From a virus: DNA of 23,042 nucleotides. A model generated the notes under the pieces. It did not search any database. It was given only the letters and a program-made list of their open reading frames with translations, and had not been told where the DNA came from. How positions within the stretch are numbered: position 1 is the stretch's first letter; each line of letters starts with the position of its first letter. This document shows positions 754 to 22,739 of the stretch, in pieces. Location: positions 1-23,042 of IMG/VR virus record IMGVR_UViG_3300008448_000690; one strand, written 5' to 3'. A program made the translations under genes and the position numbers.

Positions 754-3231
754 ATGGCAGCTATATTTCAATTAAGAAGGGGTACAACCAACATCTCATT
801 AGCAGATGGAGAATTATACTTACATCAGGGTTCCGGTTCATTACAATTTGGTAGCGGGTCTACACAATATAATGTATTAACTTTAAACGCACCTGTAAAA
901 GGTGATATTAATTTAACTGGAAACATAACAGCATCATCTGCATATTTTAGTGGAGATGTTGCAATTTCTGGAAACCTATTTCTTGGAAATGCATCAAACG
1001 ATACAATTACTGCCGGTGGAGAGTTTACTTCAAATTTAATTCCAAACCCAACAAATACATATGCATTGGGTTCTTCTACAAAACTTTGGAAAGAAGTCCA
1101 TGCAACATCTATTTCAGGAGCAATAGCAGCAACAAATGGTGTTATTTCTGGTTCGGCACAAATAGCAGCATCACTACCTACTGGAATCGTTTCAGGTTCT
1201 TCACAAATAAATTTTACACAAATAAATGGGATATCAAATGATATAGTATCTGCATCAACTGATAGTACAAATATTGATTTTACTATTACAAATGGTAATA
1301 TTTCTGCAAATTTAAAAGGTGGAGTTGTATCTGGTTCATCACAAATAATATCGGTGTTAGATTCATTAAATCAATTTAGTAGTTCTATAAATACAGCAAC
1401 TGCTTCATTAAATTTAACAACAGCAAGTTTAAACACATTTACTGCTAGTAATGGTAATATATCATTAAATGAATATACTCAATCTTTAAAAGCGGCAATT
1501 AGTTTAGATACTACAAATGTAACTATATTGGGTGATTTGACCGTAAACGGAACAACTACTCAAATTAACTCTACACAAGTTAATATTGGTGAAAATATAT
1601 TAGAATTAAATTTTGGAGGTTCTGCAAATACTGCTGGAATTTATACAAAAGATGCAACCGGTGGTTCAACTACTTCTGGTTCTTTATTATGGGATTCAAC
1701 AAATGATTTTTGGAAAGCTGGTAAGAAAGATTTAGAATCAAAATTATTATTGGCAGGGGGTGATAATATATTATCGTCATCTGCACAATTAGTTGAATTG
1801 AATTCATTTACACAATCATCTAATTTAAGATTAAATAATTTAGAATCCAAATCAGCTTCGGTTGATATTAGTATTGCAAATTTAAATATAGTATCATCTA
1901 GTGTAAACGATTTTACAGCATCTACTTTAAATAGATTAAATAATTTACAATCAAAATCTTCATCAATTGATATTATTGTTTCCAATTTACAAATATCAAG
2001 TTCAAATTTAAATATAGTAAGCGCATCGTTAAATTCATATACTGCAAGTAATGATATTACCAATACTAATCAAAATAATAGATTAAGTAAATTGGAAGAA
2101 AGTACATCTTCATTAAATACATTTACTGCCTCGGTTGCCGGACATATTTCTGATATTAATGCTTGGACAGGTTCTCAAAAACAAAAAGATACAACACTAG
2201 AAAATGTAACAAGTTCTTTAAATTTACATACCCAATCATTAAACTCATATACAAGTTCAACCGAAGTAAGATTAGATGATTTGGAATATACTGCATCAAT
2301 TTCAATAGGTGCAGGTTTAGCTGGAGAATTTAGTAAAATTAATCAGGTAACCGCTTCATTACAATTATTTACTTCTTCAATTAATACAACGATTAAGACT
2401 AAATTAGATACCGATGGTGTAATAAGTGGTTCATCACAAGTTTCATATATTGGATTATCTAATATACCAGCGGGAATTATATCTTCATCTGCACAAATTG
2501 ATACACTATTTAATATAGATGGAATAGTTAGTGGCTCATCTCAAATTTCATATGTGGGATTGAGTAATATACCGGCCGGAATTATTAGTGGTAGTTCTCA
2601 AATTACATCATTATTACCTTCTGGAGTAATTTCTGGTTCTTCGCAAGTTTATTCGGGTGTAAGTGGAGATATTACAATAGCATCAAATGGTGTTGCAACA
2701 ATTCAAGCAAATTCGGTAGCATTAGGAGTTGATACTACTGGTAATTATATGAGTGATTTAACTCAAGGTACTGGTGTTACAATTTCACATACTCCTGGAG
2801 AAGGTTCAAATGCAACTATTTCGATTGCACAAGCAGTAGCAACAACATCCGATGTACAATTTGGTTCATTAGGAATTGGAACTGCAGCAAGTGGAGTTAG
2901 TGGTGAGATTAGAGCAACTGGTGACATAACGGCGTTTTATTCATCAGATGAAAGATTAAAATCAAATATACAACCAATAGGAGAGGCATTAACGAAAGTA
3001 AATCAAATTAGTGGTAATGTATATGATTGGAAAGAAGGATTCGAAAATATACACTCGCATACTGGTACGGATATAGGAGTAATAGCACAAGAAATTGAAA
3101 AAGTATTACCATACGCAGTAATTGATAGAGATAATGGATATAAAGCGGTAAATTACGAAAAAATAGTTCCACTATTAATTCAAGCAATAAAAGAATTATC
3201 ATCTAAAATTGATAGATTGGAAAGCAAATAG
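754..3231 (+). CDS. Tail fibre with C-terminal S74 intramolecular chaperone peptidase
   Basis: An 825-residue fibre. Residues about 5-40 (FQLRRGTT, GELYLH) resemble the N-terminal domain of major tropism determinant-type phage receptor binders. The middle is Ser/Thr-rich with repeats: a GVISGSSQI-type 9-mer recurs near residues 129, 144, 190, 555, 574, 590, 609 and 624, and NRLNNLESKS / SLNTFTAS heptad-like units suggest a trimeric stalk. Residues 730-825 are a peptidase S74 domain beginning SSDERLKSNI, with the later conserved IGVIAQEIEKVLP and GYKAVNYEKIVPLL. In this family the domain assists trimerisation and then cuts itself off at the Ser of the S-D-x-R-x-K motif, so cleavage near Ser731 is expected. 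The last residues look coiled-coil. The start has an A-rich leader (AAAAGAATTAA) and no Shine-Dalgarno. It is paralogous to the next gene. Confidence 0.9.
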   Translation: MAAIFQLRRGTTNISLADGELYLHQGSGSLQFGSGSTQYNVLTLNAPVKGDINLTGNITASSAYFSGDVAISGNLFLGNASNDTITAGGEFTSNLIPNPTNTYALGSSTKLWKEVHATSISGAIAATNGVISGSAQIAASLPTGIVSGSSQINFTQINGISNDIVSASTDSTNIDFTITNGNISANLKGGVVSGSSQIISVLDSLNQFSSSINTATASLNLTTASLNTFTASNGNISLNEYTQSLKAAISLDTTNVTILGDLTVNGTTTQINSTQVNIGENILELNFGGSANTAGIYTKDATGGSTTSGSLLWDSTNDFWKAGKKDLESKLLLAGGDNILSSSAQLVELNSFTQSSNLRLNNLESKSASVDISIANLNIVSSSVNDFTASTLNRLNNLQSKSSSIDIIVSNLQISSSNLNIVSASLNSYTASNDITNTNQNNRLSKLEESTSSLNTFTASVAGHISDINAWTGSQKQKDTTLENVTSSLNLHTQSLNSYTSSTEVRLDDLEYTASISIGAGLAGEFSKINQVTASLQLFTSSINTTIKTKLDTDGVISGSSQVSYIGLSNIPAGIISSSAQIDTLFNIDGIVSGSSQISYVGLSNIPAGIISGSSQITSLLPSGVISGSSQVYSGVSGDITIASNGVATIQANSVALGVDTTGNYMSDLTQGTGVTISHTPGEGSNATISIAQAVATTSDVQFGSLGIGTAASGVSGEIRATGDITAFYSSDERLKSNIQPIGEALTKVNQISGNVYDWKEGFENIHSHTGTDIGVIAQEIEKVLPYAVIDRDNGYKAVNYEKIVPLLIQAIKELSSKIDRLESK
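2413..2622 (+). repeat. Two tandem 35-codon repeats inside the fibre gene
   Basis: Two 105-base units (2413-2517 and 2518-2622) encode residues 554-588 and 589-623. Both read D-G-(V/I)-(I/V)-SGSSQ-(V/I)-S-Y-(I/V)-GLSNIPAGIIS, then diverge in the last third. A partial third unit (GVISGSSQV) follows. The DNA differs at many third positions, so this is an old, diverged duplication. Confidence 0.75.
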
Positions 3232-3291: not shown

Positions 3292-5472
3292 ATGGGACTT
3301 AAATTTAGACGTGGTACGAACGCACAAAAATCCGGTTCGTTGGCATTTGGAGAACCTTATGTAAATACGGACTTAGGAACATTACAAATCGGTGGATTAA
3401 CCGGAGATATTACACTAGGAGCATCAGGAACAGGAAGTCAGGGTTCATTTGCTGGTATTTCAGGTTCTTCATTAGATATTACAGGTAACGCAAAAATTGA
3501 TGGTAATTTAATATTAGGTGGTACAATTACAATTGGTGATGCATCAACAGATAATGTTGTTGTAAACGCTGATTTGAGTTCATCAATTATACCAAATGAT
3601 GATAACGCATTTGATTTAGGTTCTACTTCTAAAAGATATAGAGCAATTTATGGTACAAATATATATGGTGCTATAAATGCAACAAATGGTGTGATAAGTG
3701 GTTCATCACAATTAAATACTTTAGCAACAACTGGTTCAAATACATTTAAGGGTAACCAAACAATCATAGGTAGTGGTGCAGGATTTGCAGCATATATATC
3801 AACATCTGTAAACGATGCAACATTAGGATTAGATACAACTGCCAATGTAAACGCAATGTATTTCTTAAAAGCTACTGAAAAGAATTTTGAAGTTAGTTTT
3901 GATACAACAAATGCAAATGGTATATTTAGATTACTACCATATGATAATAATAGTTTTATTCAAATAGGCAACCCATCTAATTCAGGTAATAGCAATACCG
4001 ATTATGTATTTGTTGCAGAATCAACTTATGGTAACGTATTGTTAGGTCCAGGAATTGGAAATGCAACATCATATTTAGGAGGTTCAACTCCATTAACTGA
4101 TAAAGTTCAAATAGCTGGTAATTTGTATGTGAGTGGAGCAATAAAAGCCAATTCATTTACGGGTTCAATTGCAGCAACAAATGGTGTTGTATCTGGCTCA
4201 TCTCAAGTAACTTTAAGTTCAACAACTGGATATAGTGATTTTAGTTCTTCATTGAATAGTAGAATATTAACTGAAAAAGGTAGAGTTGATGCAATACTTT
4301 CGGCAGCAGATGCAGATAAAGATTCATTTGCAGAAATTGTAACATTAATTAATTCAGTAGATACGACAAACGATAGTGCATTTGCATCATTTTATACTGC
4401 AAGTGTTGGTAGATTAAATAATTTAGAATCAACATCTGCAAGTTTATTAATTGAAACTGCAAATTTAGAATCATTCAGTAGTTCAGCACTTACAAGATTA
4501 TCGGCATTAGAATCTGAAACTTCTAACTTGGAATCATTTAGTTCTTCTGCATTGACAAGATTGACTAATTTGGAAGGTACTGATATTGGAATTACCTTAA
4601 CAGGTGATGTAACTGGTACAGGAACAATTACAAATTTAGGTAACGTTTCATTCGCAACTACAATAGCAGCAAATTCAGTAGCATTAGGAACTGATACAAC
4701 TGGCGATTATGTTGCAAGTTTAGTAGCAGGTACTAACATTACTCTTTCTAATAATAGTGGTGAAAGTGCAACCCCAACAATCGGTTTAACAAATAACGCA
4801 ATAACAATTGCAGGACAATCAACTGCATTGGGTAGTTCGATAACTGCGGAAACTATTAGAACAGCAATTGGAGCAGTTGTAACTGGTTCGGCTCAAATAG
4901 ATGTTGCATCTACTACCGGTGATATTGCATTAGGAACTAGAACATCTGGTAACTATGTAGCAACAATAACCGGAGGAACTGGCGTATCATCGACAGGTGC
5001 AACAACCGGTGAAGGAATTGCACATACAATTTCAATTGGACAGCCTGTTGCAACATCGGATAACGTTAGATTTAATTCAATTGGTGTTGGTGTAGCAGCA
5101 AGTGCGACTGCAGGTAGAATTGATGCAGCAAACGATATCGTAGCATTTTCATCTTCTGATATTCGTTTCAAAGAAAATATCAAACCAATTGAAAATGCAT
5201 TACAAAAGATTTCTAAAATTAGTGGTAATACTTACGATTGGAAAGAAGAAAACAAAATTGAACACGGATATGAAGGAAACGATGTAGGTGTAATTGCACA
5301 AGAAATCGAAGAAGTTCTACCACAATTAGTTCAAACTCGTGAAAACGGATATAAAGCAGTTAAATACGATAAATTAGTAGCATTATTAATTGAAGGTATT
5401 AAAGAACAACAACAACAAATTCATTCTTTAACAATAGAAGTAGAGGAGTTAAAGAAACAAAAAGGTTTATAA
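3292..5472 (+). CDS. Second tail fibre with C-terminal S74 intramolecular chaperone peptidase
   Basis: A 726-residue paralogue of the preceding fibre. The N-terminus (LKFRRGTNAQKSGSLAFGEP, then a TLQIGGLTGD segment) again resembles the Mtd-type N-terminal domain. A shared segment (IIPNDDNAFDLGSTSKRYRAI, then GAINATNGVISGSSQL) matches IIPN/LIPN...LGSSTKLW...GVISGSAQ in the neighbour. Two near-identical stalk units read NLESFSSSALTRL. Residues about 620-726 form the S74 domain: SSSDIRFKEN, DVGVIAQEIEEVLP, GYKAVKYDKLVALL, then a coiled-coil tail (EVEELKKQ). Self-cleavage at about Ser622 is expected from the family. The glycosyltransferase gene begins 4 bases after the stop, implying coupled translation. 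Tandem paralogues may bind different receptors or form one compound fibre; the sequence does not decide this. Confidence 0.9.
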   Translation: MGLKFRRGTNAQKSGSLAFGEPYVNTDLGTLQIGGLTGDITLGASGTGSQGSFAGISGSSLDITGNAKIDGNLILGGTITIGDASTDNVVVNADLSSSIIPNDDNAFDLGSTSKRYRAIYGTNIYGAINATNGVISGSSQLNTLATTGSNTFKGNQTIIGSGAGFAAYISTSVNDATLGLDTTANVNAMYFLKATEKNFEVSFDTTNANGIFRLLPYDNNSFIQIGNPSNSGNSNTDYVFVAESTYGNVLLGPGIGNATSYLGGSTPLTDKVQIAGNLYVSGAIKANSFTGSIAATNGVVSGSSQVTLSSTTGYSDFSSSLNSRILTEKGRVDAILSAADADKDSFAEIVTLINSVDTTNDSAFASFYTASVGRLNNLESTSASLLIETANLESFSSSALTRLSALESETSNLESFSSSALTRLTNLEGTDIGITLTGDVTGTGTITNLGNVSFATTIAANSVALGTDTTGDYVASLVAGTNITLSNNSGESATPTIGLTNNAITIAGQSTALGSSITAETIRTAIGAVVTGSAQIDVASTTGDIALGTRTSGNYVATITGGTGVSSTGATTGEGIAHTISIGQPVATSDNVRFNSIGVGVAASATAGRIDAANDIVAFSSSDIRFKENIKPIENALQKISKISGNTYDWKEENKIEHGYEGNDVGVIAQEIEEVLPQLVQTRENGYKAVKYDKLVALLIEGIKEQQQQIHSLTIEVEELKKQKGL

Positions 5473-6485: not shown

Positions 6486-8222
6486 ATGGCAAGAACAAAT
6501 TTATCATTAGGTAACTTATATAGAGCAGTAAGTGGTTCTGCTAGAGCAGGAGCAGTTTCAATTGGAGGTCTTGGTGGTCAAACTACAAATGGTTCTTTAT
6601 TATCATTTGCAACTGATGCAATAACCATCGCACCACCGACATACACTTATATAGTAGAAAGTACAACTGAAAACGGACAGTTCTCATTTAGTTCAACTGG
6701 TTCTTTATTCTATTCCAAAGTTCAACAACAATATAATAATTATACGTGTTCTTTTAATAATGCAAATTTCTCAACAGGAAGTAAGACAGTATCTACTGGT
6801 CCTACATTATTTCCAATAACACCTGCATCAATAGCACAATCTACATATTCTGAAGCATCATCTGTTTTAACAATGAAATATGAAGATGGATATAATGTAA
6901 ATGCAACAAATTATGGGAGTGTAACGACAAAAACATTATATGCAGTAGATGTTTATAATACAATTAACCAACCAGATTTTTGTTTATTATTTGGTACAAA
7001 GGTACAATTAACCGATGGTACTGAAACAAATGTAGAAGATTTAAATGTAGGTGATACTATTAAAGCATGGGTTCCTACTAATTTACCAGATGAAACTCAA
7101 TCTACGGAAAGTGACCAGGTTGATTGGAGATTCCATATGTTAGAAACAAATAGTGGAGAATATCAAGAAGTAGTTGTATCAGATGTTGTATTCAACTTTG
7201 CAAGTGGATATTTTTCAATAAATGATGGATTAATTAAAGCAACCGGAACACATCCAATTTGGGTATGGGATGCCGAAATACAAAAATATAAATTTAAATT
7301 AGCAGAAGATATTTTACCTGCTGATAAAATTGTAAAATACGATGAATTCGATGGTGTTCAAGAAATAGAAGTTTATAATATTGAAATAGTAACCGAAGAT
7401 GTAGAAATTGTAACACTTAATGTAGAAAATTTTGACGTTTATTTAGCAAATGGAACCATTTCGCACAACAAAGGTACAACGACACAACCATACATTCCAT
7501 CTTCTGGATTAAGAATGTATTTAGACCCATCAAAAGCATCATCAACAGATGGCACAGTCGGTACGGATTGGTTAGATTTGACCGGATATGGTACAGGTGT
7601 TAGACCTGCAGGTGCACCAAATGGTCTTGGTATTAGTGGTGGAAACCCAACGTATAATAATGGTGCAAGTAGAAAAGAAAAATATTGGTCATTGGATACT
7701 AATAAGTTTTGGTATAAAGATGGTTCATCAAATATAAATGGTGGATATACTCAATTTAACACAACTGCATATTCGGTAATAGCTTGGGTGAGATTCACAT
7801 CTCATCCTGCAAATGGGTATTATCAAATATTTGGTAAACACGATAATGGAGCATCACCGAGAGAAATTGCAGTTTATTTAAATTCAAATGGTAGTGGTAC
7901 TTATTTTATACACGATGGTACGACTGTACAATTTAATAGTAATACATTTACTCTTTCATTGAATACTTGGTATATGGTTACATACACCGCAGCATTAAAT
8001 GGTACAAACGTTGCTTATACTGATACTACATCAAGAGGAACTGTATCGAATGGTTCAAAAAATTATACTACATCGGGATTAATTCAAATTGGTGGTGGAT
8101 ATGGTGATAACAATTACTATTTCAATGGACAATTTGGTCCTGTGTTATTTTACAATACACAATTAAGTGGAACGGATATTACACAAGTATATAATTATTT
8201 CCAACCGACATATAGACCATAA
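6486..8222 (+). CDS. Virion/tail protein with intein-like Hint domain and C-terminal LamG (concanavalin A-like) domain
   Basis: A 578-residue three-part protein. Residues 1-165 are a Ser/Gly-rich N-terminal part of unknown type, probably the virion-attachment region. Residues 166-328 are a Hint domain: block A starts at Cys166 (CLLFGTKVQLTDGTE, then VEDLNVGDTIKAW), block B carries T-G-T-H at 253-256 (ATGTHPIWVW), and block F ends NFDVYLANGTISHN at 327-328. Residues about 337-578 form a LamG-3-like beta sandwich (GLRMYLDPSKA, YSVIAWVRF, NTWYMVTYTA, YFNGQFGPVLFYNTQLS). The residue after His-Asn is Lys329, not Cys, Ser or Thr, so ordinary splicing by transesterification is not expected; cleavage at one or both ends is. 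No homing endonuclease motif is seen. The LamG part could bind host glycans. Its location between fibre and sheath genes supports a tail-adhesin role. Confidence 0.85.
   Translation: MARTNLSLGNLYRAVSGSARAGAVSIGGLGGQTTNGSLLSFATDAITIAPPTYTYIVESTTENGQFSFSSTGSLFYSKVQQQYNNYTCSFNNANFSTGSKTVSTGPTLFPITPASIAQSTYSEASSVLTMKYEDGYNVNATNYGSVTTKTLYAVDVYNTINQPDFCLLFGTKVQLTDGTETNVEDLNVGDTIKAWVPTNLPDETQSTESDQVDWRFHMLETNSGEYQEVVVSDVVFNFASGYFSINDGLIKATGTHPIWVWDAEIQKYKFKLAEDILPADKIVKYDEFDGVQEIEVYNIEIVTEDVEIVTLNVENFDVYLANGTISHNKGTTTQPYIPSSGLRMYLDPSKASSTDGTVGTDWLDLTGYGTGVRPAGAPNGLGISGGNPTYNNGASRKEKYWSLDTNKFWYKDGSSNINGGYTQFNTTAYSVIAWVRFTSHPANGYYQIFGKHDNGASPREIAVYLNSNGSGTYFIHDGTTVQFNSNTFTLSLNTWYMVTYTAALNGTNVAYTDTTSRGTVSNGSKNYTTSGLIQIGGGYGDNNYYFNGQFGPVLFYNTQLSGTDITQVYNYFQPTYRP
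6981..7469 (+). other. Hint (intein-like autoprocessing) domain coding region
   Basis: This stretch runs from the TGT codon of Cys166 (6981) to the AAC codon of Asn328 (7467-7469) and encodes 163 residues, the size of a mini-intein without endonuclease. Codon use and AT content match the flanking gene, so a recent insertion is not indicated. The codon at +1 is AAA (Lys), as in intein-like domains that cleave rather than splice. Confidence 0.8.
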
Positions 8223-10663: not shown

Positions 10664-11155
10664 ATGCCAACAATATTAGGATTTGACAAGATGTTTTACA
10701 AAGAGTTTGAACCAAAACTTCAGAATAGATTTATTATGACAGTTGACGGTATCGAATCTTACATCATCAAAACAGCAAGTAGACCAACTTTCACATCGGA
10801 AGTAGTTGAATTAGACCATATAAACGTAAAGAGAAAGATTAAAGGTAAATCAACTTGGGATGATATAACAATTACACTTTATGACCCAATTGTTCCATCT
10901 GGAGCACAACAAGTAATGGAGTGGATTAGACAATCGCACGAATCATTGACAGGTAGAGATGGTTATTCTGCTTTCTACAAAAAACAACTTACATTCCAAT
11001 TATTAGGACCAGTAGGTGATATCGTAGAAGAGTGGTCATTAGTTGGAGCATTTATTTCTCAAGCTAATTTCGGTGAATTAGATTGGTCAAACACAACTGA
11101 CCCAGTATCTATTGAATTAACTATTTCTTACGATTACGCAATATTAGAATACTAA
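10664..11155 (+). CDS. Tail tube protein (T4 gp19-like)
   Basis: A 163-residue protein, exactly the length of T4 gp19. The features fit the myovirus tube family: an N-terminal FEPKLQNRFIM strand, a conserved central KIKGKSTWDDITITLYDPI motif, a Q-x-x-MEWIRQSHE helix, and a C-terminal pair of strands ending in SIELTISYDYAILEY. It would stack in hexameric rings to form the inner tube through which DNA passes, enclosed by the sheath encoded just upstream. It is followed within 25 bases by an intrinsic terminator, so sheath and tube form a transcription unit of their own or the end of one. I see nothing abnormal in length or sequence. Confidence 0.93.
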   Translation: MPTILGFDKMFYKEFEPKLQNRFIMTVDGIESYIIKTASRPTFTSEVVELDHINVKRKIKGKSTWDDITITLYDPIVPSGAQQVMEWIRQSHESLTGRDGYSAFYKKQLTFQLLGPVGDIVEEWSLVGAFISQANFGELDWSNTTDPVSIELTISYDYAILEY

Positions 11156-11257: not shown

Positions 11258-12067
11258 ATGGAACAAAACATTGAACAACAGGTTACAAGAGGTGGTATTA
11301 ATCCAACCGCATTACCAAAATCATTCCCATTTGCAACAGAGATAATTTCACTTCCATCGGAAGGATTATGTTATCCTGAAACACATCCTTTATCAAAAGG
11401 AACAATTGAAATAAAGTTATTAACCGCTAAAGAAGAAGATATTTTAACTTCTATAAACTTAATAAGAAGAAACGAACATATAAACAAAATGTTAGAATCT
11501 ATTATAGTTGAACCAGGAGTAAATATAAACGATATATTAGTGGGTGATAAAAATGCAATATTGGTAGCATCTCGTATGTTAGCGTTTGGAGCCGATTATG
11601 ATGTTTCAATAGATGACCCCGAAACCGGTGAACCAACTCCTGTTACGATTGACCTTTCTCAAATTCAAACAAAATCATTGGATAAAGAATTATTGAATAG
11701 AAAAAATGAATATGATTTCATTTTACCTATTTCAAAAACTCAAATTAAATTCAAATTTTTAACACATGGTGATGAGATAGCAATTAGTAAAGATGTTGAA
11801 GCGATTGAAAAATTGACTAAAACATCAGGAGAGATTACAGCAAGATATAGACGACAAATCGTTGAAGTTAATGGTGTAAGAGATGCAGGTCATATTAGTA
11901 ATTTTGTAACAAATGGATTATTAGCCGGAGATTCAAAAGCACTTCGAAAATATGCAAACTCAATAACTCCAGATTTGGATTTAAAGTTTAAATATACAAC
12001 GGCTAGTGGTGAGGAGGAGGCTCTCCGAATCCCATTCGGGGTTGACTTTTTTTACCCTATCGACTGA
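11258..12067 (+). CDS. T4 gp26-like baseplate protein / candidate tail assembly chaperone, short form
   Basis: A 269-residue protein of the T4 baseplate (gp26-like) type. Typical segments are LPSEGLCYPETHPLSKGTIE, then LLTAKEEDILTS, and a C-terminal end in LRIPFGVDFFYPID. It is predicted cytoplasmic, with mixed alpha/beta character and no membrane segment. The last 20 codons are peculiar: GAG-GAG-GAG, CTC, CGA, ATC, GGG and other GC-rich codons rarely used by its neighbours, followed by a run of seven T and then a stop. An overlapping frame continues for 72 codons past that run. Its place directly upstream of a small gene and the tape measure gene is where long-tailed phages encode the two-part tail assembly chaperone. 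I therefore think the product is made both as this short form and as a frameshifted long form; the first is certain, the second inferred. Confidence 0.85.
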   Translation: MEQNIEQQVTRGGINPTALPKSFPFATEIISLPSEGLCYPETHPLSKGTIEIKLLTAKEEDILTSINLIRRNEHINKMLESIIVEPGVNINDILVGDKNAILVASRMLAFGADYDVSIDDPETGEPTPVTIDLSQIQTKSLDKELLNRKNEYDFILPISKTQIKFKFLTHGDEIAISKDVEAIEKLTKTSGEITARYRRQIVEVNGVRDAGHISNFVTNGLLAGDSKALRKYANSITPDLDLKFKYTTASGEEEALRIPFGVDFFYPID

Positions 12068-12272
12068 TTATAGTATAGCAATTCATCAAAAGATTTTTCA
12101 AATGGTGTATAACTCCAATGGTGGATTTACTTGGAGTGACGTATACTATATGTCTATTAAATTGAGAGAATTTTATTGGAATGAATTGGTTAAAGCCAAA
12201 AAAACGGAATCCGACCAATTAAATCAAATAAACAAATCACAAGCAGCATCGTCCAAAGTTAGACGAAAATAG
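12006..12272 (+). CDS. Overlapping downstream frame, likely C-terminal extension of the baseplate/chaperone protein by frameshift
   Basis: The frame is open from 11985 to 12272. GTG at 12006 or 12009 and TTG at 12042 are the only usual starts before the meaningful part, and none has a ribosome site at proper distance. From about 12054 the translation looks protein-like: STDYSIAIHQKIFQMVY, then NSNGGFTWSDVYYMSIKLRE and FYWNELVKAKKTES. A short helical domain with a W-(S)-D-V-Y-x-M-x-x-x-LR-x-FY pattern is what I would expect of the T-type half of a tail assembly chaperone or of proteins fused after gp26-like domains. It would give a fusion of about 337 residues. I favour production by +1 (or -2) frameshift at 12047-12053 over independent initiation. 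A sequencing indel in the T run is a real alternative; then this is simply the end of the upstream gene. Confidence 0.6.
   Translation: MVRRRLSESHSGLTFFTLSTDYSIAIHQKIFQMVYNSNGGFTWSDVYYMSIKLREFYWNELVKAKKTESDQLNQINKSQAASSKVRRK
12011..12053 (+). promoter_or_regulatory. Candidate programmed ribosomal frameshift signal
   Basis: In order: GAGGAGGAGG (12011-12020), a perfect Shine-Dalgarno-like run in a genome that otherwise lacks them; a hairpin with 8 pairs and a CCC loop (12023-12030 with 12034-12041, one T-G pair, core CCGAAT / ATTCGG); five bases; then TTTTTTT (12047-12053), read GAC TTT TTT TAC in the gp26-like frame. Moving forward one base (or back two) on the T run enters the frame that stays open to 12272. 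The zero-frame stop TGA is at 12065. No experiment supports this yet. Confidence 0.55.
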
Positions 12273-12304: not shown

Positions 12305-12535
12305 ATGGCGAAGCAAAAATTAGTTGAAATAAATGTATTTTCCAAATTACTTAATTTATTTTTTACAGCAAAATCTAAAAATAAAGAAACTGTGTTTTTG
12401 AATAAAATTAAAGATTCAGATGAAGATGTATGGAAAACATTTGATGATATAAATTCAAGAATAGATGCTTCTACTAATAAATTGAACAAATACAATTCAA
12501 AGTTCAAAGATATTGACTTTTCCGATTTAAACTAA
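12305..12535 (+). CDS. Small protein of unknown function between chaperone and tape measure genes
   Basis: A 76-residue protein beginning MAKQKLVEINVFSKLLNLFF. I chose ATG at 12305 because the in-frame ATG at 12275 would place ten AT-derived residues (MIYIYIQTYD) over the promoter-like motif and only 3 bases after the preceding stop. It is Lys/Asp-rich with a short hydrophobic stretch at residues 9-20 and an amphipathic C-terminal half (VWKTFDDINSRIDASTNKLN) that could form a coiled coil. It contains no Cys and no recognisable domain. The tape measure gene starts 8 bases after its stop, so the two are likely co-expressed, and a role in tail assembly or tape-measure handling is a guess from position only. 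Confidence 0.65.
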   Translation: MAKQKLVEINVFSKLLNLFFTAKSKNKETVFLNKIKDSDEDVWKTFDDINSRIDASTNKLNKYNSKFKDIDFSDLN

Positions 12536-12543
12536 TTTAAGTA

Positions 12544-15507
12544 ATGGCAAAAGGCAAAAATCCAACTAACAAAAATAATAATGTAAAAAGTAGATTGAAA
12601 GCTGCTGCACCTCAACCTGCTAATCAACCTACTAATACTCCTCCACCTGTTGTTGATGATAAAGCAGCAAAGGCAGCTGAAAAATTAGCGGAAAATTTAA
12701 AAGAAGCTAGAAAAGAAGCCAAGGAGATGTATGAAGATATGTCCGAAATTGACGATTCCGTTAAAAGTATAGGACAGAATGTAGATAAAAACAATAGAGG
12801 GTTTAAAACATTTTCCAAATTTGCAGAAAGTATTAAAAAAAATAGTATAAGTATTGCAGATACACTTGGAAAACAAAATGATTTAACAATAAATGAAGTT
12901 AAATACATTAAAAAAGTAAATTCCGCAAAAAATAAATTTTTTAGTGAAGAAAAAAGATTAGGAAAGTTACTCAAGAATAAAGTAATTACCGAAGAACAAT
13001 TTAATAAATACACAGAGGCCGCAGCTAGAAATTATGCAAAAGTAGTTGATGGATTTGACGCCACATCTCAATCGGGTAAGCAAATAAAAGATTCGATGGA
13101 AGCTACCGCCGATGGTACTATGGATTTCACCAAAAATATGAAAAAAGCGGATGGGTTCATGGAATCATTTTTGGGTAATATGCAGGGTTCTGTCCCATTG
13201 GCAAATGAAATTGGTAGTGTATTCAAATCGTTAGGTAATGGTGGAGCTGGTATAAAAGCAGCGATAGGAGCATTGGCAGGTGCGGCTACATATCTTGCAT
13301 ATAAACAAGGTATGATGGGTGACTATTTTGGAAAGGTGGCATCTTTCAATATGAAAGACCAGGTTCTTGAAAATGAAATAGCACTTAAAAAAGCACAAAA
13401 TTCTGCAAGTTTTGCAATACAAGAAGCAGGTGTACAATTTGGTGCACAAATGCAAACTGCAGCGGATGATTTTAAACAAGAAATGAGAAATGCATTTTTT
13501 GGTGATGCATTAACTCAATTAGGTTCTAAAGCAGCTGCTCAATTAGCTAAAGCTGGATTTAGTGCAAAAGATATAGCAGAATCTAGTTTAAGTGTTGCGG
13601 GTAATTTGGGTGCAGGAGCAGATTCATCTCAAAGATTAGGTAAAGAAGTAGCGGTATTCTCAAAATATATGGGAATAGGTGCAGACCAGGCAACCGATTT
13701 AGCAGCTAATTTCCGTATAATAGATAACTCAACCGGAGAACAGGCTCTTAATATGTTAGAAGGAACTCGTCAGATGGCAAAGATGATGGGTTTAAATCCT
13801 GGTGAAGTTATGAAAGATATGGCAGATTCTACAAAAGAAATTGCACAATATAACTTTAAATCAGGTAAAGAATTACAAAAGCAAGTTATCGCCGTTAAAG
13901 CAATGGGTGGTAACTTTAATAAGATAGCATCGGCAGGTAGAAATATGGTATTGAACTATAAAGATAGTATCAAAGCCGAAATGGAATTATCTGCAATGTT
14001 AGGCAAATCTATAAACCTATCCGAAGTAAGAGCTAAATTTGCTTCTGGTCAAATACCAGAGGCGGTTAAATCATTACAAGATGAATTGGGTGGAATTGAT
14101 TTATCTCAATTAGATTTTTTCAGTAAAGATGCAATATCCAATGCATTAGGGGGTATGGATTTTGAAGAAATTGCAAAAATTGGTAGTGGAACTTATGGAG
14201 AAGTTGCAAAAAATACAAAAGATTTAGATGCGGGAATAGATAAATCATCAAAAGCTGTTGTAAAAGCAAGTATAGAACAAACAAATGCTCAAAGATTAAA
14301 TATAGAATATAGTATTGCAGAAACAAAAGCAATGAATGCTGCGGCAATACAAGCTCAAACACAAGTTGCAATGCAACAAATACAAAATCAAAAGTCATTA
14401 AATGATGTGATGATTGATAATGATTATTTGCAACTTAAAGCCAATTTAGCTTTTTTAAGAACATTAGGAACGGAACTTCCTGGAATGTTAATGAGTGGAT
14501 TGGTTGGTGGTTTAACATCATTTTTACCACAAATTTTAAGCGGGGCCTGGAAGATGCTTTCAGGAGGAGGGTTGAGTAGTGTTGCAGGTGGAGCCGGTGG
14601 TATAACTGCTGCAAGTGCAGGAACTTTTGCGGCAGGAGCAGCTGGTTTTTGGTCATTAGGAAAGGGGATGTATAATGTTGGAAGTAATGAAGCACAACGT
14701 GGTGGCAAAGGAGGTGGATGGCAAACTGCCGGTAACGTGGTGGCAGGTATTGGTGCAGAATTTGTAAATGCAGTGGATTATTTAACAGGTGGAATAATAC
14801 AAAAAGGCACAGATGCATTAGGTTTGTCATTGGAAGGTATTGATATATCGGAATTAGAAAAGTTTAGGTCGGCATATCGTTCTGCTACAGGTCAGCAAAT
14901 TGGAGTTGGTAGCGAATCAAATCAAAAATTAGCAAATTGGGTAGCAAGTAATATGCAGTTTTTATCATCTGGTGGATTAGAAGATGAGGTAAAGAATTTT
15001 CAAACGGCAGTACAAAAGGGCCTGATAAAAACAAATGTTTCAATAGCAGACCAGGTAACTGCAAATTCTGACCTAACAACTCAGGCGATTACAAAAACTT
15101 CAATGTCATCTTTGGATGATATAGAAAGACAGGCAACTGACGCATTAAATAAATCAAAAAATGCAAATAATAAAATAATTACCGATACTGGCAAATCTAT
15201 AACTGATATGACAAAAACGGCAATAACAAGTGTTACAACCACAGCAGCTGCCGGAGCTAATACATCATCGAGTTCAGGAACACCTACTCCAACTATAACT
15301 GCATCTAAAATAAGTTCAACGCCAGTATTTGATGTACATTCGGAAACAACTGCGAATACTACTATAAAAATATATGGATTGTTAGAGGCGTGGGCTAGAC
15401 AAGCTACTGGTGCAGGTGCAACTCAAGTATTCTTGGATGCAAAAAGAGTAAACAATGAGCTTAGAGATTCAAATAGAGCTCGTAGAGCAATATTTACAAT
15501 TGATTAA
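12544..15507 (+). CDS. Tail tape measure protein
   Basis: A 987-residue protein with tape-measure character. The N-terminal 40 residues are basic and Pro-rich; 40-200 is charged helix likely to form coiled coil (AAKAAEKLAENLKEARKEAK). Two hydrophobic, Gly/Ala-rich regions are at about 215-254 (AAIGALAGAATYLAYKQG) and about 633-715 (PGMLMSGLVGGLTSFLPQIL and following Gly/Ala stretch), typical of the part that enters the host membrane. Residues about 270-630 are Gln/Ala-rich helix; about 840-930 is Thr/Ser-rich. No lysozyme or peptidase motif is seen. It lies after the chaperone genes and before baseplate genes, as in most long-tailed phages. At about 0.15 nm per residue, the length predicts a tail near 145 nm, assuming no processing. 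Confidence 0.92.
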   Translation: MAKGKNPTNKNNNVKSRLKAAAPQPANQPTNTPPPVVDDKAAKAAEKLAENLKEARKEAKEMYEDMSEIDDSVKSIGQNVDKNNRGFKTFSKFAESIKKNSISIADTLGKQNDLTINEVKYIKKVNSAKNKFFSEEKRLGKLLKNKVITEEQFNKYTEAAARNYAKVVDGFDATSQSGKQIKDSMEATADGTMDFTKNMKKADGFMESFLGNMQGSVPLANEIGSVFKSLGNGGAGIKAAIGALAGAATYLAYKQGMMGDYFGKVASFNMKDQVLENEIALKKAQNSASFAIQEAGVQFGAQMQTAADDFKQEMRNAFFGDALTQLGSKAAAQLAKAGFSAKDIAESSLSVAGNLGAGADSSQRLGKEVAVFSKYMGIGADQATDLAANFRIIDNSTGEQALNMLEGTRQMAKMMGLNPGEVMKDMADSTKEIAQYNFKSGKELQKQVIAVKAMGGNFNKIASAGRNMVLNYKDSIKAEMELSAMLGKSINLSEVRAKFASGQIPEAVKSLQDELGGIDLSQLDFFSKDAISNALGGMDFEEIAKIGSGTYGEVAKNTKDLDAGIDKSSKAVVKASIEQTNAQRLNIEYSIAETKAMNAAAIQAQTQVAMQQIQNQKSLNDVMIDNDYLQLKANLAFLRTLGTELPGMLMSGLVGGLTSFLPQILSGAWKMLSGGGLSSVAGGAGGITAASAGTFAAGAAGFWSLGKGMYNVGSNEAQRGGKGGGWQTAGNVVAGIGAEFVNAVDYLTGGIIQKGTDALGLSLEGIDISELEKFRSAYRSATGQQIGVGSESNQKLANWVASNMQFLSSGGLEDEVKNFQTAVQKGLIKTNVSIADQVTANSDLTTQAITKTSMSSLDDIERQATDALNKSKNANNKIITDTGKSITDMTKTAITSVTTTAAAGANTSSSSGTPTPTITASKISSTPVFDVHSETTANTTIKIYGLLEAWARQATGAGATQVFLDAKRVNNELRDSNRARRAIFTID

Positions 15508-17841: not shown

Positions 17842-20223
17842 ATGGCAGGATTATTTGTATCCGATTTAAAAACTTGGGTTAAAGAAATTTTTTTAAATAG
17901 AGAAAAACTTGTAGAAAGTAGTATGTTTAAAACCCCATGGGTAATACTAACTTCTTCTGCATTAGTGGTACAGCAATCGGATAATAAAAAATTAACATTG
18001 CAGGAAAGAGCAAATATATTTGATGATATAATAAAAAAACCAACCCCAACAAATGGATATCAGGGATGTATCATCTCTAATGAATTACAAACTCCAAAAA
18101 ATTCTTATTCAACTAGCGGCCCTTCATCTATTGGAACCGACTTTACTGGAAAAAGAATAGTAGTAAGTGGTGAAAATAGTAGAGGAATTCCAAATCCAAT
18201 TATAGAAAGTGTAGAAATTGATACTGACGGTGTGGGTAATACTTTAAAAATAGCAAATGTAAATGTTAGATTATTTTCATTAAAACAATTGGAAATGTTT
18301 GAATTGTTTTTTTTAAAACCTGGAATGAATGTTTTATTAGAATTTGGAAATAATCAATCTGTTTTTGCAAATATAAGAAAAGAATACATTGATATGCGAT
18401 ATGGTAAAAATCCATCGTATCAACAAAGTGTAGGAGCACAATCGGATATATCACTTGCAGATATTATAGTAGATAAATCCAATTATGATACGTTTTGTTC
18501 AAATTTTGCAGAATTATCAGTAGGAGAAATTGAATCTATTAGAAAATATTATCAAAAAGTTGAAAAATCTAGAGGAACATATGAACAAGTAGCAGGTAGA
18601 GTATTAGATTATAATTATTCTATCGAAGAAAACGGAACATATATTGTTAATTTTAAAATAACCGCAGGAAATGAAGTTTCTAGAGCCATTCCAAAATCTA
18701 CAACATCTTCAAATAGTAAAACAAAAGGTCCTGTTGCAAATCCTTTGCTTTTTAATACTTGGATAAACCAAATAGAATCTGATTTTAGTTTACCTGATTT
18801 ATCCACAATCGTTACAGAAAAAGAAGATAAAAAACATTTTTTTAATTGGGGAATTACCAATGATAATAAAGCATACGAATCATTATCAAAAAAACCATAT
18901 ATTACATTAGGTTTTATTATTGACAAAATTTTGAATAATATAGCAGAATCAAAACCATCAATTGTTGATGCAAATCAATTAAAAATGGCAAAACAAAAAT
19001 TTTATACAGATGATAAAGGAGGTGGTGGAGTAGAAATGATATTAGCAAACTCGGCTAACAATTTAATTTCTGCAAATGAAAATATTATATTTCCAGGAGA
19101 ATTACCTAAAATAATAAAAAATAAAACAACTAATACGATTGTATTATCAACGGATAGTAAGGGTAATATTGAAAAATCAGATTGTACTATAAATGGGTTG
19201 GATTATACGTTAAAAGAAGCTGCATTATATATTGAAAATGAAAAACATAATGAAACTAATACAAAAAATCCTACTAAAAAATTTATAAAAATTTATGATA
19301 AAAATGACAATGTTATTTTAGGAAATGCTTTAAATATATTTGTTTCATATGATAGAGTAAAAGAGTTATGGCAAAGGTCATATACAAATATAGATTTTTT
19401 AGAATCAATATTAAAAATGATAAATGATAATTCGTTTGGTATGTTAAAACTTATAATAGGTACAACCGAAGGTGGAAAATCAGCATCATTTATAGTAGAT
19501 GGTAAAATTAAACAGGGTTCAAAAATATTATCGCAAGCTGTATCAACTGATACCAATGGACCATATAGATTTAAACCAACGACAGTTCAATCCATAGTTA
19601 AAGAGTTTACATATGAATTTAATATGAGTGAAGCCGTTGCAGGTAGAACTTTATTTAATTCGTATGCACATATTGCACAAGTTAAATCTGCACAATCAGG
19701 TTCAGTAGATGATTCTTTATTAGGTATTCCTAAAAATGCATATGAAAGTGTTGATTTTTATACAACACAAAACGCGGATGGATTTTATAGTTTAAATTAT
19801 GTTGATGTAAAAGCTGTCGAAAAAAGTATTAGAAAAGCTGCACAAGATGCCCAAAAAGGATTACAAAAGGGAACAAATACCCAGGCACCACAAGATGTTT
19901 CATTAACCATATCCGCAAATTCAAAAAAATTCAAATTAGCTGGTACTGAAAAAGTTTTAATTTTTACTGATGAAAAATTTATTGGTAATATAGTTAGTAA
20001 ATCTTTTTATGAAAAAAACAAAAGTTTATTAACACCAATTGAAATTAGTTTAACAATTGATGGAATAAGTGGTGTAAGTTGTGGTGAATTCTTTTTATGT
20101 GATGGTGTTCCGGAAATACATAATATAATTGGGGCATTTCAAATAGAAAATGTAAAACACTCTATAAATCCAGATGGTTGGTATACTATATTAGATGCAA
20201 GATGGAGAGTATTAGATATATAA
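17842..20223 (+). CDS. Large baseplate hub protein (gp27/gpD-like)
   Basis: A 793-residue protein. Residues about 118-172 (IIESVEIDTDGVGNTLKIAN, then FELFFLKPGMNVLLEFGNN) match the hub-domain pattern in which a strand pair is followed by P-G-x-x-(V/I)-x-(L/F)-E-(F/Y/W)-G. The last 100 residues (PIEISLTIDGISGVSCGEFF, then GVPEIHN, GAFQIENVKHSINPDGWYT, DARWRVLDI) are typical of the C-terminal barrel of hub proteins, with the conserved GISG, F-x-(I/V)-x-x-(V/T)-x-H and W-x-T-x-x-(D/E)-A. The middle 200-650 is variable and Lys/Asn-rich. No lysozyme or spike domain is present, so the puncturing spike must be encoded outside the window. It sits 4 bases after the LysM gene and 10 bases before the next. 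It should trimerise at the centre of the baseplate under the tube. Confidence 0.8.
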   Translation: MAGLFVSDLKTWVKEIFLNREKLVESSMFKTPWVILTSSALVVQQSDNKKLTLQERANIFDDIIKKPTPTNGYQGCIISNELQTPKNSYSTSGPSSIGTDFTGKRIVVSGENSRGIPNPIIESVEIDTDGVGNTLKIANVNVRLFSLKQLEMFELFFLKPGMNVLLEFGNNQSVFANIRKEYIDMRYGKNPSYQQSVGAQSDISLADIIVDKSNYDTFCSNFAELSVGEIESIRKYYQKVEKSRGTYEQVAGRVLDYNYSIEENGTYIVNFKITAGNEVSRAIPKSTTSSNSKTKGPVANPLLFNTWINQIESDFSLPDLSTIVTEKEDKKHFFNWGITNDNKAYESLSKKPYITLGFIIDKILNNIAESKPSIVDANQLKMAKQKFYTDDKGGGGVEMILANSANNLISANENIIFPGELPKIIKNKTTNTIVLSTDSKGNIEKSDCTINGLDYTLKEAALYIENEKHNETNTKNPTKKFIKIYDKNDNVILGNALNIFVSYDRVKELWQRSYTNIDFLESILKMINDNSFGMLKLIIGTTEGGKSASFIVDGKIKQGSKILSQAVSTDTNGPYRFKPTTVQSIVKEFTYEFNMSEAVAGRTLFNSYAHIAQVKSAQSGSVDDSLLGIPKNAYESVDFYTTQNADGFYSLNYVDVKAVEKSIRKAAQDAQKGLQKGTNTQAPQDVSLTISANSKKFKLAGTEKVLIFTDEKFIGNIVSKSFYEKNKSLLTPIEISLTIDGISGVSCGEFFLCDGVPEIHNIIGAFQIENVKHSINPDGWYTILDARWRVLDI

Positions 20224-20668: not shown

Positions 20669-21430
20669 ATGAAATACATCACACAATCAGAAATAGAACA
20701 ATTGTTGCATGACTGGAAATACAAAGGATATGCAATTGTTGATGTTTTAACAGAATCGGAGGTAGATGAAATTATAGTAGAATTGGACAAATTGCGAATT
20801 AATAGAAATCAATCTGATAAAAAGTGGGGAGAATATGAACCATATATGCATCCACACAAAGAATCCGAATTAATTGAAAAAGTATTAGCACATCCAAAGG
20901 CAATTGAGTGTATGGAATTACTTTTAGATTCGGAAATACAAGGAGTTCAAACTTGGGCGTATTTTAAACCACCTGGAGAATTGGGTAGAGATGCACATCA
21001 AGACGGATTTTATTCTCAATCGGGTTGGAATAAAATAGCAAACATTGCGATATCATTAGATGATTCGGATGAAAGTAATGGTGGATTATGGGCATTTGAA
21101 GCTTCACATTATTTACCTTTGTTAGATATTGAAGTTGATGAGGATAGAGTTAAATCAAATCCAGGTAATTGGAGAAATGAAAGAGGTAAAGCAAGTAAAA
21201 TGCCAGAAGGACACAACTTTCCAAAAATATATGCAACTCTTAAAAAAGGACAAGCATTTTTAATACATTCACATTTAGTACATGGTTCCGATACAAATAA
21301 TGGAAATTCATTTAGACGTTCTATATTAAGTGGATATATGTTGAAAGGTGGGTATTTAAGACAGGGTGAACATATGAAAAGAGAACCAATAGATGTTTAT
21401 GAAATTAGAGATAAACATTGGAAAGATTAA
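20669..21430 (+). CDS. PhyH-family 2-oxoglutarate/Fe(II)-dependent dioxygenase
   Basis: A 253-residue protein of the phytanoyl-CoA dioxygenase superfamily. The metal-binding HxD is H110-Q-D112 (GRDAHQDGFY) and the distal His is H205 (HSHLVHGSDTN), followed by R216/R217 (NSFRRSI) suited to bind the 2-oxoglutarate carboxylate. Between them are the family's strand NIAISLDDSDESNGGLWAFE and the P-G-like turn before the distal His (KKGQAFLIH). Length and motif spacing are normal, so it should be an active oxygenase hydroxylating an unknown small molecule, nucleotide, sugar or protein side chain. No signal peptide is seen. Environmental phages often carry such enzymes; substrate cannot be told from sequence. 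It has its own promoter-like block and does not overlap neighbours, so it is likely controlled separately from the virion genes. Confidence 0.88.
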   Translation: MKYITQSEIEQLLHDWKYKGYAIVDVLTESEVDEIIVELDKLRINRNQSDKKWGEYEPYMHPHKESELIEKVLAHPKAIECMELLLDSEIQGVQTWAYFKPPGELGRDAHQDGFYSQSGWNKIANIAISLDDSDESNGGLWAFEASHYLPLLDIEVDEDRVKSNPGNWRNERGKASKMPEGHNFPKIYATLKKGQAFLIHSHLVHGSDTNNGNSFRRSILSGYMLKGGYLRQGEHMKREPIDVYEIRDKHWKD

Positions 21431-21467: not shown

Positions 21468-22739
21468 ATGAATCTAATTGAAGATAAACGTACCCTACTT
21501 TCGTTTTTAGGGGGTAATGTAAATATTGACCTTATTGTTCCTGTATGGAGTTCTCATAGAGCACATCCATTGGGGAATCGTTTGTCGTTCATTTATTATA
21601 GACAAATGAATGGCGAAGATGGAATAATAAATTTCAATCATATAGATGCAAAGAAATTAGACAAATTTGACATATCCAAAATAATTCATGTTAATACATT
21701 GGTTTTAGACAATAGGTATTTAAACACCATAGGATTGGATTATGAGTGGGTTTACTTTGAAGAGAATGGGAAACCATTTATCTTTAATGAGTTCGTTATT
21801 GGGGTTTATAGGGGGTATAAAAACGACTTTAAAGAGTTGAATGATTGTGTACCTTTAATGAAATGGTATGAAGTTCTAAAAACAATCCCAAATATCAGTA
21901 CACGAAGAGAGTGGGATAGAAAATATACATCAGCAATACAAACATTAGGAAGGTTGGAAGGGGCTGGGGTAAAGGTCGTTAGAGAAAAATTTATTGATAG
22001 TTTTAACTTTAACGAGCAATACTTGCGTAAAAATGATATCGTCTACACACAATACAACCCATATACAACAACCGGTAGACCATCCAATCGTCACCTTAAC
22101 GTTAATTACTCTGCTCTTAATAAATCGGATGGAACGAGAGAGTGCTTTGTTAGTAGGAATCCAAATGGTACTTTATTACAATTTGACTATGAGTCTTATC
22201 ACATTCGTTTGATTGCGAAAATGGTTGGATATGAATTTCCAAAGGGGATATCGGCCCACCAACACCTTGCAAACCTTTATGGGTGCGATTACGAAACGGC
22301 AAAGAAGATAACCTTTACATACCTTTATGGTGGATTAGATGATAATGCAAGAGGGATACCATTCTTTCAAAAGGTGGATGAATATATTAAGGGATTATAC
22401 CAAACGTTCGTCATTTCTGGAAAACTTACGACACTCTTATATAAAAGAGAAATACCATTTGATAGAATAGAAGGTGCAAACGAACAAAAGGTATTCAACT
22501 ATTTACTACAATCATTGGAGACTGAAATCAATTATATGAAGATTGGTGAGGTGTTGGAGTATTTGAGTGGTAAAATGTCGAAAATGGTATTTTATACATA
22601 TGATGCCTTTGTTATAGATACACATCCTATTGAAAGAGAAAATCTTTTAAACGACATTAGAGAAATAATGGAGAAGGGTGGTTTTCCGGTCAAAATAGAA
22701 GAAGGAGATAATTACAACAATTTAGTGGGAATAGATTAA
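21468..22739 (+). CDS. Short family A (Pol I-like) DNA polymerase
   Basis: A 423-residue protein with the three polymerase motifs of family A. An upstream TTGRPSNRHLNVNY (201-214) matches the T-x-TGR-x-S...N-x-N motif. Motif A is LLQFDYESYHIRLIAKMVG with Asp240. Motif B is ETAKKITFTYLYGG (276-289), keeping the Lys (K279), the aromatic (F283) and Tyr-Gly (287-288), but the position equal to E. coli Arg754 is Tyr275. Motif C is FYTYDAFVID with Asp379, while the usual next Glu is Ala380. Both catalytic Asp are therefore present. The first 140 residues show no convincing DxE exonuclease motif, so proofreading is probably absent; the protein is far shorter than Pol I (928). G-rich codons such as GGG and GGT are used more than in the virion genes, suggesting a different origin or expression class. 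Replication, repair or gap filling are all possible. Confidence 0.82.
   Translation: MNLIEDKRTLLSFLGGNVNIDLIVPVWSSHRAHPLGNRLSFIYYRQMNGEDGIINFNHIDAKKLDKFDISKIIHVNTLVLDNRYLNTIGLDYEWVYFEENGKPFIFNEFVIGVYRGYKNDFKELNDCVPLMKWYEVLKTIPNISTRREWDRKYTSAIQTLGRLEGAGVKVVREKFIDSFNFNEQYLRKNDIVYTQYNPYTTTGRPSNRHLNVNYSALNKSDGTRECFVSRNPNGTLLQFDYESYHIRLIAKMVGYEFPKGISAHQHLANLYGCDYETAKKITFTYLYGGLDDNARGIPFFQKVDEYIKGLYQTFVISGKLTTLLYKREIPFDRIEGANEQKVFNYLLQSLETEINYMKIGEVLEYLSGKMSKMVFYTYDAFVIDTHPIERENLLNDIREIMEKGGFPVKIEEGDNYNNLVGID

Follow-up and report, generated by a model that had tools for sequence, protein, structure and literature searches.

In phages lambda (G/GT) and P2 (E/E') and in Mu-type phages, tail assembly chaperones (TACs) depend on a small gene, upstream of the tape measure gene, in which a low-level frameshift occurs close to the 3' end (PMC5009743). 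The shift is −1 in lambda and P2 and −2 in Mu; TAC frameshifts in each of the three directions have been described, and +1 frameshifting was reported for the TAC of the archaeal myovirus HSTV-2 and for cps/tsh of Listeria phage PSA (PMC5009743). T4-like phages were listed as an exception to the frameshifted chaperone rule (PMC5009743). The TACs of T4 are gp26 (short) and gp51 (long), encoded by one short and one long gene, as identified by Vladimirov et al. (2022) according to PMC10885494 and PMC12846349. Poly-T −1 signals are known in T4-like TAC genes (PMC12846349).

The locus described here lies in a virus record of 23,042 bases, the whole of which is called the window. T4 has two separate genes on opposite strands, whereas the window has one gene and a candidate frameshift, with two overlapping frames upstream of the tape measure gene (Table 1). 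As in lambda, P2 and Mu, a short and a long chaperone are expected, here from the sequence, the shift being +1 instead of −1 or −2; no sequence similarity to these systems is claimed, nor any kinship with the HSTV-2 and PSA genes, and PSA slips on a proline codon, unlike the window site. The initial annotation had placed the end of a gp26-like frame at 12065, just after a run of seven T (12047-12053), and a second open frame, one base ahead, at 11985-12272; all these coordinates were confirmed. Skipping one base at the slip site gives, by conceptual translation, a long form of exactly 337 residues. The programmed switch between a 269-aa and an approximately 337-residue product that had been proposed is supported, and so is its position just upstream of the tape measure gene, with one 76-aa ORF in between. 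This ORF had no convincing family match in phrog and Pfam searches. An ORF of similar size occupies the same position in Microcystis phage Mel-JY01 (5030-5245 of locus L082), and in Flavobacterium phage immuto the annotated tape measure gene occupies a place equivalent to that of the window.

Table 1. Features of the chaperone locus (window coordinates).
Feature	Position	Strand	Remarks
Tail tube	10664-11155		Chaperone gene stands between tail tube and tape measure
0-frame ORF, tail assembly chaperone of the T4 gp26/gp51 family (predicted), short form	11258..12067	+	269 aa
Possible 4-bp hairpin GGNG / CN'CT	12008..12024	+	GGAGG in loop; RNAalifold, weak, tentative
GGAGG	12016..12020	+	Occupies −31 to −27 relative to the T run; invariant in the window's clade
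T7 run	12047-12053	+	
Putative slip site TTT TTT TAC CCT	12047..12058	+	P-site UUU 12050-12052 would move to UUU 12051-12053, one base skipped
+1-frame extension, putative gp51-like helical C-terminal domain	12054..12272	+	72 aa plus stop
0-frame stop TGA	12065..12067	+	End of short form
Small ORF	12305..12535	+	76 aa, between chaperone and tape measure; from ORF list
Probable tape measure protein	12544..15507	+	987 aa; phrog_167 (tail length tape measure), E 0.00099, weak

Searches with the short form gave PF12322 (T4_baseplate) at an E-value of 3.8e-10 and a score of 40.3 bits, above the gathering cut-off of 24.5, and phrog_150 (baseplate hub) at an E-value of 3e-12. PF12322 covers T4 gp26 and gp51 over nearly their full length, and the window protein in part. 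The gp26 family membership initially attributed to this protein is thus retained on the basis of PF12322; its designation as a baseplate protein is not: as gp26 and gp51 are the TACs of T4, the name tail assembly chaperone (T4 gp26/gp51 type) suits it better. The short form and the tail (the +1-frame extension) were modelled with AlphaFold as two separate halves rather than as the fused long form. The short-form model (pLDDT 87) gave no significant match when compared with the PDB by Foldseek. In a second look, at 994 PDB chains, the only matches above Z 3 were the HK97 TAC (2ob9) and YqbN (3klu), which we take to be an XkdN-like phage tail chaperone. Both scored Z 4.8, a value that is weak by itself; for this model the identity of the two top matches is what is telling.

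The tail was modelled with a pLDDT of 82 and forms helices at residues 4-19, 27-31 and 35-66. It resembles the extra C-terminal stretch of T4 gp51. In hhalign comparisons, a mixed profile of the T4 gp51 C-terminus and other second-frame domains was matched with a probability of 95% (E 3.5e-8), and a profile made only of T4 and −1-frame sequences with a moderate probability of 63% (E 7e-5). These values are consistent with a gp51-like C-terminal domain but do not prove it.

Conservation was surveyed in 237 distinct relatives. In IMG/VR, the +1-frame domain was found in 80 relatives at 65-100% identity, in 73 further relatives down to 48% identity and in 80 relatives of phage immuto. All untruncated IMG/VR relatives retrieved with the gp26 query have the same split, offset and slip motif; only two loci (L162 and L193) lack a readable tail, and in both the contig stretch ends at the slip site. 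Split and offset are also the same in isolates, namely Flavobacterium phage immuto, Microcystis phage Mel-JY01, Bacillus phage SP-15 and Listeria phage LIS04, and the +1-frame domain is present in LR756508 and SagM-GXN1. Ten loci in genome assemblies, of which several belong to Flavobacteriales, carry it as well. Comparison with relatives, which had been suggested as a check of the split, the T run and the offset, thus shows that split, slip site and frame offset are conserved; in some variants the T run is only four or three bases long. Within the first 40 codons the +1 frame contains no stop in any of the 237 sequences, whereas the −1 frame is interrupted in 189; in the window it closes 11 bases after the stop, and a −1 shift in the window's clade was ruled out on this ground. 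Divergence of the tail at codon positions 1, 2 and 3 is 0.186, 0.115 and 0.349, and because it is concentrated at the third position the tail is a real coding frame.

Two individual loci are recorded separately. A WOR-3 chromosome (L260, CP070664) carries a TTT TTT TGG CCT copy followed by the +1 tail within a 2.8-Mb MAG chromosome, perhaps as part of a prophage or of a contractile injection system. In the huge phage LR756511 (L087, 4700-4930), the tail domain apparently stands as a gene of its own, with an ATG that overlaps the stop (TAATG); this may be a third arrangement.

The slip sites found were TTT TTT TAY, TTT TTT TGG, TTT TTT TTC, TTT CTT TGG, TTT CTT TAC, TTC TTT TGG/TAC and TTT TTC TGG, and CCT follows in all these types. 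When IMG/VR was scanned for variants with TTC at the first or second codon, TTC at codon 1 (TTC TTT T) was observed in at least 80 stretches, at least 76 of which are gp26 homologues, and TTC at codon 2 (TTT TTC T) in three, two of which are gp26 homologues. YUU followed by U or C is present at codon 1 or 2 in every one of the 237 distinct sequences, and yet 25% of the upstream Phe codons are TTC. Since YUU-Y is kept in all natural variants, +1 ribosomal slippage is the best reading of the site. Two observations count against it: a +1 slip would have to take place at codon 1 in LIS04 (TTT TTT A) and in two other loci (TTT TTC T; L349 and L350), and in the 0 frame the codon at the A site is a normal sense codon (UAY, UGG or UUC).

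The identical frame would be reached if the same two-product chaperone gene used a −2 shift, as in Mu (PMC5009743), the long form then containing one more residue (VDFFF-TLSTDYS). Perfect re-pairing is permitted by the T7 run, a move from CUU to UUC would be tolerable, and LIS04, L349 and L350 fit such a shift; however, at the 76 or more TTC TTT T loci and in phage SagM-GXN1 a UUU tRNA would have to pair with UCU, which creates a central mismatch, and LR756508 (TTT CTA TTC) fits badly. We consider a −2 shift improbable. The choice between +1 and −2, which the initial annotation had left open, is largely settled in favour of +1 by the natural variants of the slip sequence, and these also speak against slippage of the RNA polymerase. 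In that case some mRNAs would lose one U from the T7 run and encode the long form in a single frame; the seven-base run is present and a one-base deletion would yield exactly the fused product, but the frame is retained in relatives whose T runs are just four (TTCTTTTGG) or three (TTTCTATTC) bases long. Runs of this length are too short for polymerase slippage, and a transcriptional origin of the long form is very unlikely. Another in-frame TTT TTT TT run is present in the window at position 18307, inside the ORF 17842-20223, and could serve as a natural control for slippage on a bare T run.

It is just as hard to believe that the tail is a separate gene that overlaps the gp26-like gene and is expressed from its own start, for example by termination-reinitiation, even though it is annotated in that way in Mel-JY01, the downstream domain of KVP40 has a TAATG overlap and the domain of LR756511 looks separate. 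The sole canonical start of the +1 frame in the window is a GTG at 12006, which is available for such a gene but lies in non-conserved upstream sequence. Of the 237 distinct sequences, 77 carry no ATG, GTG or TTG anywhere from the upstream stop to codon +6; a stop stands two codons ahead of the T run in many relatives; and the earliest ATG that is common in the window's clade, at codon +16, falls within the conserved domain. This survey of start codons contradicts a separate gene and agrees with the initial view that the second frame has no credible start. Across the relatives the +1 offset was constant and no conserved start was found. Least likely of all is an error of assembly or in the homopolymer, or a pseudogene in decay: a frame break at a homopolymer is a typical signature of sequencing errors, but hundreds of independent contigs, and isolate genomes as well, share the identical architecture, and codons are constrained on either side of the break. 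Because the offset is constant, stops are absent, no start is conserved and coding is under selection, an assembly error and a separate gene are both regarded as excluded.

We infer from these sequences that a +1 shift does occur, and that a single TAC gene of the gp26/gp51 family very probably gives two products from one start. Most ribosomes would read the 0 frame to the TGA and release the gp26-like short form, and a minority would move one base ahead at UUU UUU UAC. With the aromatic codon in the A site still unfilled, the peptidyl-tRNA on YUU would re-pair with the UUU or UUC that starts one base further downstream, and the shifted ribosomes would continue in the +1 frame, adding a 72-aa helical domain presumably equivalent to the gp51 C-terminus. 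By analogy with lambda G/GT, the role of the short form would be to coat the tape measure protein; the long form, which would be rare, would additionally recruit the tail tube protein via its extra domain. A comparable slip is made in prfB (RF2), where YUU moves +1 onto UUU as proposed for the window site; the immuto clade has exactly CUU U. Ribosomes on prfB pause at a UGA stop, with a Shine-Dalgarno sequence 3 bases upstream. In the window's family, unlike prfB, the A-site codon is a sense codon (UAY, UGG, UUC), and a GGAGG sequence ends about 26 bases upstream.

Of 202 distinct loci, 145 have GGAGG at precisely −31, and so do all 72 loci of the window's clade, where synonymous codon resampling leads one to expect about three. 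By the same procedure, it was observed in 50 of 53 loci of the next group (3.75 expected), and in immuto-like phages it was found at varied positions in 49 of 77 loci (11 expected). Since it is missing from 28 of the 77 immuto-like loci and from 31 of 46 TTC-type loci, the element is not universal. It may lie in the loop of a small hairpin (Table 1), but in the window itself U faces U at N-N'. When 91 third-position pairs were ranked by complementarity in excess of expectation, the hairpin pair −37/−25 came first (0.75 against an expected 0.55). Downstream of the site, RNAalifold gave only a weak candidate stimulatory structure, made mostly of invariant pairs, and an Rfam scan of the window gave zero matches.

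Two roles for GGAGG were considered and rejected. As an initiation signal, it would lack a conserved start at a suitable spacing in the tail frame. Shine-Dalgarno stimulators are spaced by 3-14 bases in prfB and dnaX, and at about 26-29 bases GGAGG stands much too far away for a classical stimulator acting on the same ribosome; we know of none that acts at such a distance. The hosts are probably Bacteroidota, as suggested by the Flavobacteriales assemblies and by the immuto isolates, and the genes of the window have no Shine-Dalgarno leaders. According to PMC9976891, Bacteroidia ribosomes do not recognise Shine-Dalgarno sequences at initiation, and PMC6321510 reports stimulation of +1 shifting by an upstream RNA duplex in other systems. 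It is conceivable, although doubtful, that GGAGG at −31, with the possible hairpin, is a distant frameshift stimulator in hosts that sequester the anti-Shine-Dalgarno sequence. If so, its role would point to a conditional use of the rRNA tail during elongation or to a new upstream-RNA mechanism for +1 shifting, and GGAGG constitutes a testable puzzle about Bacteroidota ribosomes.

In T4-like cyanophages and in KVP40, Aeromonas phage CC2 and Stenotrophomonas phage Moby, a −1 site is located in the same gene and at the same place as the +1 site of the window. Their gp26 genes have an open −1 frame that encodes the same kind of domain after an FF motif, and the site is the canonical heptamer T TTT TTC, whereas in the window the shift would be +1 at YTT-Y and the −1 frame is closed. 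In cyanophages and CC2 (L169, L262-L265), a GAGGG-like or AAGGG-like sequence is found about 12 bases before T TTT TTC; this is the usual distance of a −1 Shine-Dalgarno stimulator. The initial view that a switch on a gp26-like protein had not been described is not upheld, given these −1 sites and PMC12846349. Neither a conserved +1 shift in the gp26/gp51 family nor a distant GGAGG at a frameshift site was found in the literature searched, to which Vladimirov et al. (2022) did not belong; programmed frameshifting of the TAC type is itself known, and the forward-shifting version in the T4 gp26/gp51 family appears to be undescribed so far. Three solutions occur in the family: a −1 shift in cyanophages, KVP40, CC2 and Moby, a very probable +1 shift in the window's relatives, and two genes in T4. 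As the same short and long pair is reached by three routes, the requirement for two forms outlives the mechanism that provides them. From the hundreds of natural variants one could also work out the rules that govern bacterial +1 frameshifting at YUU-Y. The immuto annotation lacks the long form, and that of Mel-JY01 lists the tail as a hypothetical protein of its own; the annotation of these phages is probably wrong at the frameshift spot.

Several other genes of the window were noted. A family A DNA polymerase of 423 aa (21468-22739) matches a short part of the Pfam model only and may be reduced or split. A fibre-like protein (6486-8222) ends with a Laminin_G_3 lectin domain, and its middle part (FGTKVQLTDGTE ... 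TGTHPIW ... NGTISHNKG) reads like a self-processing module of the Hint/intein type, which was not called by Pfam. A phytanoyl-CoA dioxygenase (PhyH) gene (20669-21430) adjoins the structural genes. Two neighbouring tail-spike-like proteins (754-3231 and 3292-5472) each carry a terminal Peptidase_S74 intramolecular chaperone, and the second begins with an Mtd_N-like segment.
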